Virus record (IMG/VR): IMGVR_UViG_3300031957_000416
Span: 1-52,141 of that record
DNA length: 52,141 nucleotides
Strand: one strand, 5' to 3'
Origin: a virus
Position numbers and translations under genes: made by a program. Below are positions 9,992-23,138 of this stretch, piece after piece (the first letter of the stretch is position 1; each line of letters begins with the position of its first letter). The notes below the pieces were generated by a model, which ran no database searches, was not told the origin of the DNA, and saw only the letters and a program-made list of their open reading frames with translations.

Positions 9992-10441
9992 CTAGACCAT
10001 GCCTGTTGGCATAGGTCCAGGTGGCACGTTAGTTTGTGGTGCACCTTGTGGTGCTCCGCCTAATCCACCTTGTGGTGAACTAGGAATCTCTTGTTGTCCT
10101 TTTGAAGCAAAATCTTGTCCCATCATTGAAACAGAATCTTCAATAGTTTCTGCAGGATATGCACTTGCAACTACAGAAACTGGAATATTTACAGTAGGTT
10201 CTTCTGGACCTATATCATTAAGTGCACCAGCAATTTCTGGACCAAATAATTCAGCCAATGCTTGCTTTAAGCCTGGAGTTAAATGCTGTTCTAAAATTTG
10301 CATAGTTCCTTCAGACGCATTTTGTAGTACTCTATTAAATTCTTCAGGGTTAATGTTTATACCTGCAGTAGGTGCCATTTCTTGTTCTGGCATCGTAGCC
10401 TGTTCAGGTGCCATCATTCCTTGTGGGGGCATCATTGCCAT
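9992..10441 (-). CDS. Met/Pro/Gln-rich protein upstream of scaffold (149 aa)
   Basis: A low-complexity protein: the N-terminus (M-M-P-P-Q-G-M-M-A-P-E-Q) and C-terminus (G-A-P-Q-G-A-P-Q-T-N-V-P) are Pro/Gly/Gln/Met-rich. The middle (about 28-105) is folded-looking and acidic (L-Q-N-A-S-E-G-T-M-Q-I-L-E-Q, A-L-A-E-L-F-G-P-E-I). It sits between the Hint-domain gene and the scaffold gene, with a one-base overlap to the former. Small proteins of this composition are common next to portals of marine podoviruses. The role is unknown; a head-assembly factor is plausible. Confidence 0.6.
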   Translation of the reverse strand: MAMMPPQGMMAPEQATMPEQEMAPTAGININPEEFNRVLQNASEGTMQILEQHLTPGLKQALAELFGPEIAGALNDIGPEEPTVNIPVSVVASAYPAETIEDSVSMMGQDFASKGQQEIPSSPQGGLGGAPQGAPQTNVPPGPMPTGMV

Positions 10442-12033
10442 TATGCTTCTCCTCTTAATTTTTTATTTAAATTCTGTTTTACTTTTTCAAAATATGGTGC
10501 CCAATCATCATCAGATCCTGTTTCAAAGTCTCCAAATTCTATATCATGAATCCATATTCTATTGTTAGAAGTTTTAAATGTATATACAGGTTCTACTCTA
10601 TCAGTAAGAATTCCATGCTTACTATCTTCTACTTCAATAAATTGATTATCTTCTATTACCCAGTGTGATCCAGAAACTAATACGCCTTTGTAGTTATAAA
10701 TATTTTGTGGCATAAATTCCATTTTAGCCTGTACAATACCGCCTCTAGTTTCTTCACCAATTTCAATACTTGTAATTTCTTTTGTAGTGCCATCAGCCAT
10801 TTGAACAGCAGTGCCTTCAACGAAACATCCTGATGGACCTCCGCCTCCTTGGCCTCCTTGACCACTACCTCCATCTCCTTTACTAGAACTTGGATCTCTA
10901 AATGATTTTGCCTCTGTTCTTTGTTGATCTGTCATAGAACCTGCACCTGATTGTGGCCCAGTTGGTCCACTTGGTGTACTTGATGTACTTGTGTCTTTAT
11001 CTTGACCACCTTGATCAGATTTTTTAGTTTTTACAGGTTTTACATTTCCAAATCTATCTGTATAAGTAACTACGCCTTTGTAGTTGCCTGTTTTAGGATC
11101 ATATCCATATCCAACTAATCCTGAAGCAACTTGATCGTTTATTTCTTTTTGTTTGTCTGCTGCTTTTTTAGCTAATTCTCTTTCTACTTCTCGTCTTCTT
11201 TCAAGTTCATCTAATAGTGCTTTTTCTCTTGCTGCCTCTGCTGCTTTTTCTGCTGCCTCTGCCTCTTCGCCTTCTCTTCTTTCAGTTATACTGCCACTAA
11301 ATAAATCAGTAGATAATGCACCTACATCTTGCGGTGTAGTAGCACCAGGTTGTGTAGGCCTTCTAGTAGGTACCATACCACTACTATCTAGTATATTAGA
11401 AAAGGCATCAGATAAATATCCTGGAATATTTTTATCTTCTGCCAATGCTTCTATTTGACTAGTGCTTAATCCTTTAGCGATAGTTCCATCTTCAATTTGA
11501 TCTTTAATTTTTTGTTCTGCTTTTTCTTGGTTAGCTTGATTTAAGAATCCTAAACCAGCACCTAAAAGTGGATTTACACCAGACAATACTTTTCCAAAAA
11601 CAAAATTTGCAACTTTAGCCCCTGTTCCTGGATAAGCAGTTGACATTAGTCCTTCTAAACTATTAGGATCTACAGTATTACCTGCATTAAATCCTCCTGC
11701 TCCTCCTTGAAAGTTTGAACTATAGGGATTATTTTCTCCGCCACCACGTTCAGTAATGGACATTTGAGTAGTTGTAGTTGTATCTTCACCTGTATCTTCA
11801 TCTGTATCATCATCTGTATCATCTGATGTTACAGGATCAACATCTAGTTCTGTTATAGGAGTAGTTAACATTTTTTGTAGATCTACTCCATCAGTAGAGG
11901 CAGACACTATTGGAGTATACTCATATTTTATTTTATATACTCCAGTAGTTGGATCTTGTTTTAACACTTGTTTATATGTAGGTAACCTACCTGTCCTAGG
12001 GTCTATCGAAGGTGGTGTATCATATAAAGCCAT
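10441..12033 (-). CDS. Virion-region protein with C-terminal Hint (intein-like) domain (530 aa)
   Basis: Residues 1-400 are low complexity: an Asp/Thr-rich stretch (residues ~95-115), an Ala/Glu/Arg helix (~265-300) and a Gly/Ser/Gln-rich linker. Residues 403-530 look like a Hint domain: Cys403-F-V-E-G-T-A-V-Q-M-A-D-G opening, G-S-H-W-V block at ~454-458, and a last block I-W-I-H-D-I-E-F-G-D near 491-500. Hint domains can cleave at their leading Cys. No following Asn-Cys/Ser splice junction is visible, so cleavage rather than splicing would be expected. It lies between portal and scaffold. Hint call is good; activity is inferred. Confidence 0.7.
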   Translation of the reverse strand: MALYDTPPSIDPRTGRLPTYKQVLKQDPTTGVYKIKYEYTPIVSASTDGVDLQKMLTTPITELDVDPVTSDDTDDDTDEDTGEDTTTTTQMSITERGGGENNPYSSNFQGGAGGFNAGNTVDPNSLEGLMSTAYPGTGAKVANFVFGKVLSGVNPLLGAGLGFLNQANQEKAEQKIKDQIEDGTIAKGLSTSQIEALAEDKNIPGYLSDAFSNILDSSGMVPTRRPTQPGATTPQDVGALSTDLFSGSITERREGEEAEAAEKAAEAAREKALLDELERRREVERELAKKAADKQKEINDQVASGLVGYGYDPKTGNYKGVVTYTDRFGNVKPVKTKKSDQGGQDKDTSTSSTPSGPTGPQSGAGSMTDQQRTEAKSFRDPSSSKGDGGSGQGGQGGGGPSGCFVEGTAVQMADGTTKEITSIEIGEETRGGIVQAKMEFMPQNIYNYKGVLVSGSHWVIEDNQFIEVEDSKHGILTDRVEPVYTFKTSNNRIWIHDIEFGDFETGSDDDWAPYFEKVKQNLNKKLRGEA

Positions 12034-14393: not shown

Positions 14394-14762
14394 TTATTTC
14401 TCCTTATGTTTAGTTTTTGATAGTGACTCTTGTATAAATTTTAAGAGCCATGGATTATCTCGTAAGACAATATGTATTTGGTTAGCCAATGTATTTGTAA
14501 CAACTTCTTCTTTATCTTCATCTGATAATGGATTAGATTTAGTTGTAAGCCCACCAACGTAACAACACGCATGTAATACTTCATGAATTACTGTATTTAA
14601 TAAATCGTGTCGTTCTAAATTTGTATTTATTTGTATTTTATTTTCTCTTTGCAAATAATGACCATAGCAATCTGTAAGATTATCTGTTCTAAAATCTGCA
14701 TCTTTTAATTCAATAGTTAGATCTTGAAATCCAACTCTTAATTTTTTTCCATCTATATCCAT
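14394..14762 (-). CDS. Putative small zinc metallopeptidase (HExxH, 122 aa)
   Basis: The motif T-V-I-H60-E61-V-L-H64-A-C-C matches the HExxH zinc-binding and catalytic signature. It is preceded by a strand-like N-K-I-Q-I-N-T-N-L and followed ~20 residues later by an acidic helix (D-K-E-E-V-V-T-N, residues 83-90) that could give the third ligand. This is the minimal layout of compact ImmA/IrrE- or SprT-like gluzincins. The gene overlaps the large terminase by one base and precedes the portal, so it is expressed with head genes. Substrate unknown: head maturation or a host protein are both possible. Motif is seen; protease activity inferred. Confidence 0.65.
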   Translation of the reverse strand: MDIDGKKLRVGFQDLTIELKDADFRTDNLTDCYGHYLQRENKIQINTNLERHDLLNTVIHEVLHACCYVGGLTTKSNPLSDEDKEEVVTNTLANQIHIVLRDNPWLLKFIQESLSKTKHKEK

Positions 14763-16378
14763 TAGTATCCAAACATCCTATCTGCTGGTGTATATTGTTT
14801 ATTAGAATTAAAACTTGATAAGCCAATTCCGTGTGGATTAATGGGGCGAGACATGCATCCATATCTTAGTGCATCGTAAGCATGATCTTCTGCGTGCGTA
14901 TCAACATCTTCTGGATTGTTTTTATCGCATGGTAAAAGTGGTAGTGTTCGTATTAAGTTAACACAGTTGTTAAAAATAAATAACGATGGTTTAGCTTCAT
15001 TATTTTTTTCTCTAACAGATAGTCGTTTGTGTATTTCCAGTTTACCGTTGATACGACTTCTTGGTGATCTATCCGATGGTCTCCATCTACATCCTGTGTT
15101 GATCATCGTTTCTGCAATACTTGGACCAACATCACCTCTTCGTGCCCAAGTACTTGAATCTAGAACTCCATATCTTATATATTCTTTATGTTCTAAATCT
15201 AAAACTTGTTGTGCAAATAAATCTGCTGTAACTTTTTTTGTGTACAATTCTCTATAGATATATAAATTATTATCAAAATCTATAGCAAACCATAATACAC
15301 AAGCAGGTGAAGAATATCCCCAGTCACATGCTCTAAACTTATGCCAGTTTCTAGGTAGTTCAAATGGTTCTAAAACATGAACCGCTTTGTTAAACTCTGG
15401 GAAAGCTGCATCTTCATACGCTCCCCAATCTCCATCTAGAAATTGTTTTCTTTGCACTTCAGGCAAAGAAGCTAGCATAATATAATAATCCTCTGTTTGC
15501 ATCAGATATGGATTATCTTGTAACTTAGCTGGTATAAATCTTCTTGTTATCTTTTTATTACCAACTGGAGTTTGTATATCAATATCAAACTTTGTATTAG
15601 GCACCGCTGGATCTACAAACATTTCTTTTACCCAAGTAGATCCTACATTTCCCGGGTTACCTGTTGCTCTCATAAACACTGGTATATCTGGATCAACTGA
15701 TCTAAGAGATGATCTTAGAAAGTTATAGATATCAGGAGTTGAATATTGTGGTAACTCATCAATTCCAATCCATGTATAAGACTGACCTTGATATCTAAGT
15801 GCGTCAGTAGTGTTTTCAGCATATCCAAATTCTATTTTAGCACCTGATGGAAATCTCCATTCTTTTTCCTGCTCTCTCCATTTAGCTCCAGGAAACGCTT
15901 TTGGATACAATTGTTGAGAATGATTTATTAAATCTCTCAACTCAGGCATAGAACGTCTAATCAATAGTGCTCTATGTTTTTGCCTATCACAATATCGTAG
16001 TGGATCAATAAGCATTGCATATGACTTACCACCACCTCTTGCTCCACCATAAAATACTTCACGTTCAGATGCTGCTAAGAACTGTGTTTGAGGCCCTTCA
16101 TTTGGTTTAAAGATTACTTCTTGTTCTTTAACAGCCTCTTTTACATTTGGTGGAACGTTATCTAATTCTTCTTCAACAAATATATTTTCTTTATTCTCTA
16201 ATATATTATCAGCTTTTTGTATAGCTTCTTTTTTATTTTTTAATTTCTTTTGTGCATTATGATAATTATCTTTTGCTTTTTGTACTTGTTTAGCTATATC
16301 ACTAATGCTAGCCTTTGCTGATCTTTTTGCTTTAGCTACTTTTTTCTTTTTAGGTTTAGGCGGTAGAACATCATTCAC
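14762..16378 (-). CDS. terL: Terminase large subunit (538 aa)
   Basis: The packaging motor and nuclease. Residues 1-90 are a Lys-rich, helical extension. The ATPase has a Walker A G-G-A-R-G-G-G-K-S (111-119), Walker B W-I-G-I-D-E (203-208, D207/E208 catalytic) and a coupling motif A-T-G-N-P-G (238-243). The RNase-H-like nuclease follows, with D352 in C-D-W-G-Y-S-S-P and D407 in V-L-D-S-S. Length is normal apart from the basic N-terminal extension. It overlaps the small DNA-binding gene upstream by 8 bases and the HExxH gene downstream by one. Confidence 0.95.
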   Translation of the reverse strand: MNDVLPPKPKKKKVAKAKRSAKASISDIAKQVQKAKDNYHNAQKKLKNKKEAIQKADNILENKENIFVEEELDNVPPNVKEAVKEQEVIFKPNEGPQTQFLAASEREVFYGGARGGGKSYAMLIDPLRYCDRQKHRALLIRRSMPELRDLINHSQQLYPKAFPGAKWREQEKEWRFPSGAKIEFGYAENTTDALRYQGQSYTWIGIDELPQYSTPDIYNFLRSSLRSVDPDIPVFMRATGNPGNVGSTWVKEMFVDPAVPNTKFDIDIQTPVGNKKITRRFIPAKLQDNPYLMQTEDYYIMLASLPEVQRKQFLDGDWGAYEDAAFPEFNKAVHVLEPFELPRNWHKFRACDWGYSSPACVLWFAIDFDNNLYIYRELYTKKVTADLFAQQVLDLEHKEYIRYGVLDSSTWARRGDVGPSIAETMINTGCRWRPSDRSPRSRINGKLEIHKRLSVREKNNEAKPSLFIFNNCVNLIRTLPLLPCDKNNPEDVDTHAEDHAYDALRYGCMSRPINPHGIGLSSFNSNKQYTPADRMFGY

Positions 16379-19582: not shown

Positions 19583-20512
19583 CTAAGCAACTTGAGAATG
19601 TTCCTCAATTCCACCATCGACAACTGGTGCTTTGTTATAATCATTAATGGTGTTTCTTAAATTTCTAAACACTTTTAAATGATCGGCTTTCAACTTCTCA
19701 TCAACTTGAACAGTCGTATTGTTCTCATCATCTTGATCAAAGTTATTCTCATCATTGACATAGTTAACCATTGCAGAAAAGAAGTTCACCATCTTTTGAT
19801 TGTGTGATAATGCTTCTTTTATCTCATCAAGATCAATTAAAGTTTTTTCTGCAAGTTCATCATATTTAAATGATATCTCTTTGTTGCCTTGCTTCTGCTC
19901 TTTTTTGCTAGGCACTTTAATAAAACTATTTAATAGTTTATTAAATGTGTCCTCATTGATTGACTCAATTTTTCTTAGCAATGATTTTTGCCTTGTCGCT
20001 TCTGATTCAATTCCAAAAATTCTATTGTAAACTTTTGGAATCTCTTTTAATGGTTGCCTTGCGTGTGCTGGTGTAAAATCATCTTTTACATTTGCATATT
20101 CACTGACGACAACAAAGACATTATTTCTAAAATAAAAATAAGGGCTATCTGCACTATTTCTATTTTTTGTATTGTCCTCGTCATTTTCTTTGTAGTACCA
20201 TACAAGAGAAATCAAAATTGCATTTGATACATTATTTTCAAAAGTGGTGTTTCTCTCACTTGTAATGATACCATCATCGTTTTTAGTTTCTCCCTCATAC
20301 TCAGCAAGAGAAAAAATTCTCTCTTTTAAAGTATCAGTTTCTATACTATTGCCTCTATACTCGGTATTGAGCCATGACAGTATAAGAGTTGCAAAGTCAT
20401 TGATCGTTTGAGCACTTGTGCTCTTTTGTGTATCTATCAAATTCTTTTTTGCGAATTTTGATAGTGCCATTTCATTTTTAGCATTTTCTTTTCTAATGTC
20501 TATTGTAGTCAT
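19583..20512 (-). CDS. Orphan gene, unknown function (309 aa)
   Basis: A soluble, highly charged protein (many D, E, N, K), helical in the first 130 residues with a F-A-T-L-I-L-S-W-L-N and A-I-L-I-S-L-V-W-Y-Y segment. A Lys/Glu hinge lies near 205-215 (S-K-K-E-Q-K-Q-G-N-K-E), and the tail is acidic. No enzyme motif, cysteine cluster or HTH is obvious. It stands alone on the minus strand between the two divergent blocks, with its own terminator, and is bracketed by two copies of the 17-bp palindrome. A regulator, replication initiator or host-takeover protein would fit the place, but nothing in the sequence decides. Confidence 0.75.
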   Translation of the reverse strand: MTTIDIRKENAKNEMALSKFAKKNLIDTQKSTSAQTINDFATLILSWLNTEYRGNSIETDTLKERIFSLAEYEGETKNDDGIITSERNTTFENNVSNAILISLVWYYKENDEDNTKNRNSADSPYFYFRNNVFVVVSEYANVKDDFTPAHARQPLKEIPKVYNRIFGIESEATRQKSLLRKIESINEDTFNKLLNSFIKVPSKKEQKQGNKEISFKYDELAEKTLIDLDEIKEALSHNQKMVNFFSAMVNYVNDENNFDQDDENNTTVQVDEKLKADHLKVFRNLRNTINDYNKAPVVDGGIEEHSQVA

Positions 20513-20629
20513 TTAGTTTTCTTTTCTTGAAAGTTCTATTTATAAAAAATATTTGATTCAAACAACTTTCAAAATTTCAAATCAAATCATTATTAAAAGT
20601 ATCAAAGTTTTTAAAATTAATCAAGTCAT

Positions 20630-20798: not shown

Positions 20799-20827
20799 TT
20801 GACTCCAGGACCTGGCGGTTGTATACT
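20799..20827 (+). promoter_or_regulatory. Main early promoter, rightward
   Basis: TTGACT (20799-20804), a 17-base spacer and TATACT (20822-20827) give a near-consensus sigma70 promoter; each box has one change. The start near 20834 gives a ~30-base leader with AAGGAG (20853-20858) before the ATG at 20864. It faces the whole early and replication block and is the obvious source of its first transcripts. Confidence 0.85.
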
Positions 20828-21475: not shown

Positions 21476-21531
21476 TTGATGCAGAAACACTAGCAGTTAT
21501 CATAAACTTTATATTTGCTTTTATTATATGA
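21472..21531 (+). CDS. Hydrophobic 19-residue peptide
   Basis: GGAGGTGATTAA leads to the ATG at 21472-21474. The frame has 19 codons, mostly hydrophobic (L-A-V-I-I-N-F-I-F-A-F-I-I), and its TGA overlaps the ATG of the next gene. It may be a tiny membrane peptide or simply a translational-coupling device for the 61-aa gene. Confidence 0.35.
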   Translation: MIDAETLAVIINFIFAFII

Positions 21532-21713
21532 TAGAAGTAGAGCCAATTACTTTTGAGTGGAATGACAATCATTCTAGATCAGAGAACTTTGATACTTGGT
21601 TGAGACGAACTAACCGAGAGCATAGAAACTATAAAGAGATAGAGTATACAAAAGAAGAAGGTTTAAAAATCTTTGATAAGCTCTATCCAGTTGGAGCTTT
21701 GTACCCAGCTTAA
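21528..21713 (+). CDS. Hypothetical early protein (61 aa)
   Basis: A 61-residue acidic protein with aromatic-rich core (P-I-T-F-E-W-N-D-N-H, then F-D-T-W-L-R-R-T-N-R-E-H) and an amphipathic C-terminal helix (E-E-G-L-K-I-F-D-K-L-Y). It overlaps the 19-codon frame as ATGA. No family recognised. It ends 80 bases before the next gene, and the gap is filled by a structured leader. Confidence 0.6.
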   Translation: MIEVEPITFEWNDNHSRSENFDTWLRRTNREHRNYKEIEYTKEEGLKIFDKLYPVGALYPA

Positions 21714-21731
21714 CATATTCCGTAAGGGATC

Positions 21732-21780
21732 CTACCTCTAGTCGTCTCCAAACTCTAGGGGTAGTGTAAACATTTGGAGA
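21732..21780 (+). promoter_or_regulatory. Pseudoknot-type leader (candidate riboswitch or translational switch)
   Basis: CTACCTCTAG (21732-21741) pairs with CTAGGGGTAG (21755-21764), 10 bp with one G-U. The 13-base loop contains TCTCCAAA (21745-21752), which is perfectly complementary to TTTGGAGA (21773-21780). That segment is part of the purine-rich tract before the ATG at 21794. Together they make an H-type pseudoknot that could hide the ribosome site. I do not recognise a known riboswitch class. Pairings are seen; ligand or protein control is inferred. Confidence 0.55.
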
Positions 21781-21793
21781 GAGAGGATAAGTT

Positions 21794-21967
21794 ATGTACC
21801 TTGTAGTTGAAGAGATACACTATCAAGCAATAGATGAAAAACATTATTATGTTAGATTTTCTGATGCTGATATGGTTAGATGCCAGGCCTGGCTAGATAC
21901 TAAAAAAAGTTTAGAAGAAGTAGAAGGCGATAAAAAAAATTACGCTATATTTTCAACAGCGTCTTAA
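21794..21967 (+). CDS. Hypothetical protein under structured leader (57 aa)
   Basis: The ATG at 21794-21796 has GAGAGG at seven bases and opens 57 codons (MYLVVEEIHYQAIDEKHYYV...). The product looks like a small alpha/beta domain: two strands (Y-L-V-V-E-E-I, H-Y-Y-V-R-F), a helix (D-A-D-M-V-R-C-Q-A-W-L) and an end strand (N-Y-A-I-F-S). It is the last gene before a strong terminator. Its place behind a pseudoknot-like leader suggests controlled expression. No family known. Confidence 0.65.
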   Translation: MYLVVEEIHYQAIDEKHYYVRFSDADMVRCQAWLDTKKSLEEVEGDKKNYAIFSTAS

Positions 21968-21985: not shown

Positions 21986-22021
21986 AAAACCCCACTAGGA
22001 ATTATCTTAGTGGGGTTTTTT
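21986..22021. terminator. Strong bidirectional terminator
   Basis: CCCCACTA (21990-21997) pairs with TAGTGGGG (22008-22015) around a 10-base loop, flanked by AAAAA on the left and TTTTTT on the right. It ends the first early transcript (plus) and, through the A-run, the converging orphan gene at 22113-23138 (minus). Confidence 0.9.
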
Positions 22022-22112: not shown

Positions 22113-23138
22113 TCAAGCAGTACCAGACATGCCATGCAACACGATTACATTCGGCACTTCTTGTGGTGTGTCATCAATACCATCTAAGGCATTGTTTAAC
22201 TTATTGATTCTGAACTGTGCTTGAGGTGTCAATGCAAGGGCAGTATTGTTTCCTGCTCCTCTTATCTGTGCCTCAATAGGTTTCATCATCTTACCAAGTG
22301 GAGACTCAAGTAGCCCTTCAACACTTCGTATCTTAGATAGTATGCCACGCACATCATTGTAGTAGCCTTGTCGTTCCTCTTGTAGATTATCCAAAGCTGC
22401 CGACATTCTATCGCAAAGTATCTTCTCTTGTTTGATAGTGTTGAAATCCCCAGCATCGTAAACAGCCAAGCCTTGAGTATGACATTCATAATTTAATCTG
22501 ATACAAACATTTGAATTGAAGTTATCGACAACCCAATTACTGTATGCTTCATGACTTTCCATTTTTCTGTCATAATCTCGTTGCCTACTCCAACCCATGT
22601 TTTGATACTCGACACTTCTCTGCATACCGATACCATTTTCTTTCAAGTAATCATGATTGATTAGCTCAAATGTTCTTCTGTCTGGGTAAGTATTAAACCT
22701 AGCAGTAGCTTCTTCTCTATCCATACCATCTGCGTCTTGCGATACAAGATTAAAATGAATGCATTGATCCAGATGAAATATACTTCTATTATAATAGACG
22801 CTACTCCTACCATCAAATGTACTTTTAAATGAGTCATTCTCTTTATCCTTGAAGTCCTCAAGTTTCAGGTCAGATACTTGTTTGTTATGAGGCAGTCCTG
22901 TGGTGTTCCACCTATTTCTATCGCTTATCTCACGCATAGCATTCACTTGATCTTGAGGTGTGTGTGCTGTGATATAACGATTTGCCACATTATACGCATT
23001 GCGATACGCATTTTCCCATTGACTTTTATTTGTGTCATAGGTTTCTTTGTAGTCGCTTGGTAGACTGTGGATAGTTTTCAAAGCATGTGGGAGAATTACA
23101 TTCTCTTTGATGTCTTTGTCTATCAGTGTTTTTGCCAT
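22113..23138 (-). CDS. Orphan minus-strand gene within the early block (341 aa)
   Basis: A soluble 341-residue protein rich in N, Y, R and D, with alternating helices and polar loops (R-N-A-Y-N-V-A-N-R-Y, N-Y-E-C-H-T-Q-G-L-A-V-Y-D). A likely coiled segment lies at ~245-285 (M-S-A-A-L-D-N-L-Q-E-E-R), and the tail is P/V-rich. No catalytic motif stands out. It has its own promoter (23174-23202), a good AGGAG site and shares the terminator at 21986-22021. It is therefore an independent cassette, reversed relative to its neighbours, as in accessory (moron-type) genes. Function unknown. Confidence 0.8.
   Translation of the reverse strand: MAKTLIDKDIKENVILPHALKTIHSLPSDYKETYDTNKSQWENAYRNAYNVANRYITAHTPQDQVNAMREISDRNRWNTTGLPHNKQVSDLKLEDFKDKENDSFKSTFDGRSSVYYNRSIFHLDQCIHFNLVSQDADGMDREEATARFNTYPDRRTFELINHDYLKENGIGMQRSVEYQNMGWSRQRDYDRKMESHEAYSNWVVDNFNSNVCIRLNYECHTQGLAVYDAGDFNTIKQEKILCDRMSAALDNLQEERQGYYNDVRGILSKIRSVEGLLESPLGKMMKPIEAQIRGAGNNTALALTPQAQFRINKLNNALDGIDDTPQEVPNVIVLHGMSGTA

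Follow-up and report, generated by a model that had tools for sequence, protein, structure and literature searches.

Analysis of the window, the whole 52,141-nucleotide stretch of DNA in virus record IMGVR_UViG_3300031957_000416, located an H-type pseudoknot in the leader at 21714-21793 on the + strand, formed by a stem of 10 bp (S1) and a helix of 8 bp (S2) between its loop and downstream sequence, and preceded by a hairpin of 5 bp. Comparison with relatives indicates that the fold is real, an RNA pseudoknot of the + strand maintained by compensatory change, and by the tests run it would represent a new RNA family of the leader-pseudoknot kind lying outside the named families. The role proposed for it, given about an even chance of being correct, is that of a cis-acting translation-control RNA which would gate 30S loading on an accessory gene carried in a polycistronic phage mRNA.

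The components of the element and its neighbours are collected in Table 1. An earlier sequence-only reading of this DNA had drawn the 10-bp stem S1 and a loop of eight bases exactly complementary to a stretch of the purine tract before the ATG at 21794, and all of these coordinates proved correct; the hairpin, which is separated from the S1 5' strand by a single C, was absent from that reading. The S2 3' strand is followed by a 13-nt tail (GAGAGGATAAGTT) leading up to the ATG, and the element occurs as a single copy in the window.

Table 1. Positions in the window of the leader components and of the features that flank them.
Feature	Position	Strand	Remarks
Upstream 61-aa ORF	21528-21713	+	TAA stop 21711..21713, one nt before element
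5' hairpin ATTCC-GTAA-GGGAT	21717..21730	+	5 bp, 4-nt loop; most sequence-conserved part
S1 5' strand CTACCTCTAG	21732..21741	+	pairs with 21755-21764
L1 TCG	21742..21744	+	3-5 nt in relatives; only first T conserved
S2 5' strand TCTCCAAA	21745..21752	+	CUCC core in every S2 type
L2 CT	between S2 5' strand and S1 3' strand	+	
S1 3' strand CTAGGGGTAG	21755..21764	+	10 bp with CTACCTCTAG, one G-U
L3 TGTAAACA	21765..21772	+	crosses S1; YGYAA conserved at L3 start
S2 3' strand TTTGGAGA	21773..21780	+	holds distal SD-like GGAG; end 13 nt before ATG
Proximal SD-like purine tract GAGAGGA	21781..21787	+	outside pseudoknot
57-aa acidic small-protein ORF	21794..21967	+	fast-diverging; no family match
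Terminator-like hairpin CCCCACTAGG-AATTAT-CTTAGTGGGG plus T tract	21990..22021	.	read by eye; simple scan did not list it
Convergent 341-aa gene	22113-23138	-	

A scan for H-type pseudoknots, which covered the sequence preceding each ATG on either strand of the window and was accompanied by dinucleotide shuffles, confirmed the exceptional nature of the leader: an equal pseudoknot was recorded in none of 10,000 dinucleotide shuffles of its 80 nt, while shuffles of the whole window yielded a mean of 0.03 pseudoknots of such score, and none out of 60 contained one with as many G-C pairs. The nested-only folding energy of the leader was ordinary (z 0.27 and -0.12), and the signal is consequently that of the pseudoknot plus its covariation, not that of nested folding energy.

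Relatives were sought in IMG/VR and one genome collection with protein and pattern queries, and the element was found in eight other contigs, or nine if a truncated copy (L107) is counted: 3300032084_000515, the leader of which is identical to that of the window, L003/L008, L004/L005, L042/L098, L045/L099, L097, L110 and L149. It was present in all seven records with a complete convergent 341-aa gene and just upstream of the small-protein gene in all eight records holding the small protein, so that the leader accompanies every small-protein homologue found in complete sequence. The element was not found in HTVC033P, HTVC104P, HTVC115P or other fetched records; against cultured phages, BLAST with the leader and tblastn with the small protein returned chance-level matches only, and the 341-aa neighbour had no match. 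A genome scan with the RNA pattern likewise gave no match. A wider RNA pattern also matched terminase and other coding sequence (ATTCCGTCAGGAATTCCTAGC...), and these matches were rejected for want of an S2; matches of the R1/R2 model in other phages (E 0.01-1) corresponded on inspection to coding or ordinary sequence. The known distribution of the element is narrow (nine contigs).

A structural alignment was made by hand with the structure in view, its few rows each being checked against the corresponding locus; MAFFT misaligned S2 in two rows (A7 and A9), and pair counts were therefore taken from equal-length rows padded with N. Within this alignment 99.4% of the cells were paired, a single cell out of 159 being unpaired, and two-sided changes were recorded at 11 of the 23 pairs overall (S1, 4/10; S2, 7/8). 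The covariation score was reached by none of 500 shuffles, and when partners were slid by 1-3 columns 30-55% were paired. Three unrelated types of S2 were encountered, all of them complementary (UCUCCAAA/UUUGGAGA, UUACUCCU/AGGAGUAA and ACUCCUGU/GCAGGAGU), with a CUCC:GGAG core common to every type in a shifted register. The replacement of S2 between groups A and B is a single evolutionary event; changes within the groups are independent of it, namely A-U to G-C and C-G to A-U in L003 and U-A to U-G in L110. Read on the + strand, the alignment shows four different G-U pairs but not a single A-C pair, which identifies that strand as the RNA. In the 5' hairpin four of the five pairs never vary and the variation is one-sided only (U-G/U-A), so that, the hairpin being near-invariant, its pairing is supported by that one change. 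Two coexisting H-type helices are thus kept by compensatory change: the relatives bear out the earlier proposal of an H-type pseudoknot at a ribosome-binding site, and a search for pairing lost without compensation, which yielded the one unpaired cell, also favours the fold.

The window belongs to a virus whose terminase shares 72% identity with its counterpart in Pelagibacter phage HTVC033P and approximately 50% with those of HMO-2011, HTVC103P/104P/115P and Roseobacter CRP phages, values which indicate an HMO-2011-type phage with HTVC033P as its nearest cultured relative; on this evidence the host is probably SAR11 (Pelagibacter). Small genes make up a short operon on the + strand, and towards its end lies the element, ahead of the convergent minus-strand 341-aa gene; the terminator-like hairpin stands between operon and gene. 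Among the relatives, the ORF preceding the element is of four different kinds, all of them ending no more than about 1 nt from where the element starts. No promoter-like site was present directly upstream of the leader, the nearest good one being at 20799-20827, and the leader is therefore probably situated inside a polycistronic mRNA.

The downstream product ranges from 57 to 83 aa across relatives and is acidic (pI 4.7-5.4), the 57-aa protein of the window having a predicted beta-beta-alpha-beta fold (pLDDT 92). The sequence-only reading had called the 57-aa protein unknown, in keeping with which no match was obtained with PHROG, Pfam or PADLOC, and fold searches with the predicted structure gave no informative match. 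Between the window and L004 the leader was 94% identical as against 63% for the coding nucleotides, with identities of 39% for the small protein, 82% for the upstream 61-aa gene and 66% for the 341-aa gene. Between L098 and L097 the equivalent values were 94% for the leader and 48% for the coding DNA, whereas L003 and L110 exhibited the reverse (leader, 64%; coding DNA, 80%). Such values indicate that leader types and protein types have been reshuffled between phages; in group B a second ORF follows that of the small protein. The gene behind the leader is thus one that evolves fast and is exchanged, as would suit an accessory function; a counter-defence role is offered as a guess.

The purine tract before the start codon consists of two Shine-Dalgarno (SD)-like motifs, and S2 pairs only the distal GGAG. 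In all seven leaders with an ORF the 3' end of S2 lies 12-16 nt from the AUG, leaving a usable proximal SD; in the window this motif, GAGAGGA, is outside S2 with a spacing of 6-7 nt to the ATG. The distal GGAG inside S2 pairs with the anti-SD at -6.4 to -6.9 kcal/mol, and the proximal motifs (GAGAGGA, AAAGGAU or UAGGAGA), situated 5-9 nt from the AUG, at -5.3 to -7.3 kcal/mol. The suggestion that the leader hides a ribosome site is consequently sustained only in part: the upstream GGAG is indeed paired by S2, but the ATG-proximal SD is free in the pseudoknot, so that the site is not simply hidden, its upstream half alone being taken up. The pseudoknot would accordingly stand at the margin of the 30S footprint. 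Estimates made by hand, in which a pseudoknot penalty of 8-10 kcal/mol was assumed, gave -22 to -28 kcal/mol for the pseudoknot, -16 to -18 for a hairpin of S2 only and -18 to -23 for S1 alone, rough values that favour the pseudoknot over either nested fold. An alternative OFF state, in which CCUC or CCUA of S1 would pair the proximal SD, could form in five out of six folded leaders; its registers differ between leaders, and it is weak in L004.

The proposed gating would operate as follows. The 5-bp hairpin directly after the upstream stop is succeeded by a pseudoknot holding, in its 3' strand, the upstream half of a doubled SD; with the pseudoknot folded, only the short AUG-adjacent SD tract would be free, and a 30S subunit could dock but would have to melt S2 to be accommodated, a requirement that would lower or gate expression of the accessory gene. 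Because the loops and S2 vary and the cargo is swapped, whatever opens or stabilises the fold is probably general, such as the ribosome and ribosomal protein S1, or a shared RNA-binding protein, from phage or host, that recognises the conserved hairpin, rather than a small molecule or the protein made by the downstream gene. Precedents may be seen, by analogy, in rpsO with ribosomal protein S1 (PMC3858243) and in small riboswitches whose pseudoknot overlaps part of the SD (PMC9410914). The rpsO (S15) pseudoknot of E. coli docks on the 30S platform and is melted by ribosomal protein S1 (PMC3858243), and resembles the present element in lying in the 30S footprint, in having a pairable SD and in needing to be melted for accommodation; however, part of its coding sequence takes part in the pairing, and S15 stabilises it (PMC3858243), whereas the S2 of the present element stops 12-16 nt short of the AUG, with no r-protein encoded. 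Two points count against gating: the freedom of the proximal SD, and the existence of a copy (L149) with no gene behind it, which suggests that the fold may serve something besides the downstream gene.

That copy comprises the hairpin, S1 and its own compensated third S2 type, followed directly by ATCCCCCCAATAAAAAA and a terminator, with no start codon. The contig (L149/L154) is PAMH01000014.1, filed as a Legionellales MAG. It is chimeric elsewhere, where Legionellales plasmid-like genes with a fused ORF (14444-15742) are joined to a window-type phage fragment, and its end keeps the phage gene order. If the copy is real, either the RNA persists with no gene behind it or that gene has recently been lost. 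Together with the stops adjoining the element, it keeps alive both a role at mRNA ends or in processing and a coupling to upstream termination. The main rival to gating, though an unlikely one, is accordingly an element, situated where the upstream operon ends, that serves mRNA processing or stability, or else a small RNA derived from the 3' UTR; for either, the downstream ORF would be optional: hairpin and pseudoknot would protect or define an RNA end, be it the upstream 3' UTR or the processed 5' end of the last gene. Four different gene contexts in which the element begins at the upstream stop codon, the copy consisting of element plus terminator, and T4 gene 32 mRNA, in which a pseudoknot in the leader occurs together with processing by RNase E at -71 (PMC3014915), are all in keeping with such a role. 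By contrast, seven of the eight distinct complete leaders have an ORF start 12-16 nt after S2 with a proximal SD, and the core of S2 is always an SD-like GGAG.

The same free proximal SD could belong to a translation enhancer or standby structure, with the pseudoknot recruiting the 30S subunit or ribosomal protein S1 so that the accessory gene is expressed more strongly, not less. Selections that prefer pseudoknots as ligands of ribosomal protein S1 or the ribosome, as quoted in PMC3858243, and standby translation of tisB, which requires a pseudoknot (PMC7708055), lend this alternative some plausibility; it is nonetheless considered rather unlikely, the SD paired by S2 being the better-matching one in group A (-6.4 as against -5.3 to -5.8 kcal/mol).

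Also of low probability is a regulatory cassette that does not depend on its cargo and is coupled to the upstream stop codon; through its RNA, an interchangeable accessory gene would receive a signal that the operon is being translated. A ribosome terminating on the preceding gene would cover the 5' hairpin and not S1; the accessory gene would possibly be one of counter-defence, and the RNA could act as a 3' element where no gene follows. If true, this would be a type of phage RNA switch not described before.

Control by the encoded protein fared poorly; the sequence-only reading had spoken of protein-controlled translational switches in general. A T4 gene 32-like operator, at which the small protein or another phage protein would bind the hairpin or pseudoknot and repress, is suggested by the phage setting and by the near-invariant 5' hairpin, which resembles a protein site. 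The T4-type element is likewise an H-type pseudoknot in the phage mRNA leader of one gene with a link to translation initiation, but it is situated some 67 nt upstream, the ribosome-binding site being covered by a long A+U-rich stretch and the ligand being the encoded SSB (PMC3014915), whereas the present pseudoknot abuts the SD, carries an extra 5' hairpin and precedes a 57-aa acidic protein with no PHROG or Pfam match. The charge of that protein and the reshuffling of protein types with leader types make autoregulation unlikely, and no RNA-binding family was matched; the operator reading as a whole is very unlikely.

Still less credible is a small-molecule riboswitch in the style of preQ1-I or SAM-II. 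Those riboswitches share the compact H-type fold and an S2 3' strand partly overlapping the SD, by which the preQ1 pseudoknot tunes 30S binding (PMC9410914), and a conserved YGYAA stands here at the start of L3. However, L1 is 3, 4 or 5 nt long and unconserved and S2 is replaced wholesale, neither ligand-binding loop nor S2 nucleotides being conserved, which makes a ligand pocket unlikely; furthermore, the downstream gene is not metabolic. A search with Rfam 15 (4227 families, including preQ1, SAM-II, SAM-V and Downstream-peptide) returned no match in the window at gathering thresholds and none in 21690-21830 at E<=10, in agreement with the earlier remark that no known RNA class could be recognised, and a literature search found no published description of such an element. 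The Downstream-peptide (glutamine-II) RNA is also a marine structured leader before short unknown ORFs (PMC2864571), but its Rfam model gives no match here; with respect to type III toxin-antitoxin systems, the element is single-copy with no tandem repeats and the protein lacks a ToxN-like family match. That the pseudoknot is a functionless chance product, a reading to which the ordinary nested energy and the few homologues might lend themselves, is negligibly probable in the face of the leader and window shuffles and of three independently compensated S2 types.

According to a 2010 review, viruses may offer no other pseudoknot used in translational autoregulation than that of T4-type gene 32 (PMC3014915). 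Translational pseudoknots are scarce in phage mRNAs, and the present element adds a case that covariation supports and Rfam lacks, from an abundant group of marine phages. The conserved leader marks an exchange site of small, fast-changing genes, and thereby offers a way of finding accessory genes, possibly ones involved in host takeover or counter-defence; the known spread of nine contigs limits this interest.

Several features elsewhere in the window were also recorded. The loop of the terminator between the convergent operons occurs in both orientations (AGGAATTATCTT and AAGATAATTCCT) among the window, L098 and L149, and contains GGAAT or ATTCC, as does the 5' hairpin of the element. A second, AT-rich H-type candidate at 20513-20588 on the minus strand (S1 ATTTGATTTGAA/TTTGAATCAAAT; S2 TTGAAAGTT/AACTTTCAA) precedes a 309-aa gene (19583-20512) and was equalled in 1 of 10,000 shuffles of its leader; despite this good score it was rejected, L042 and L107 keeping only part of S1 and not S2. 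The 226-aa protein coded at 24686-25363 matches Pfam GP88 and PHROG 2554 (unknown function), and a structural-cluster protein coded on the minus strand at 10441-12033 contains, as judged by eye, a Hint/intein-like stretch (CFVEGTAVQMADGTTKEITSIEIGEE...GSHWV).
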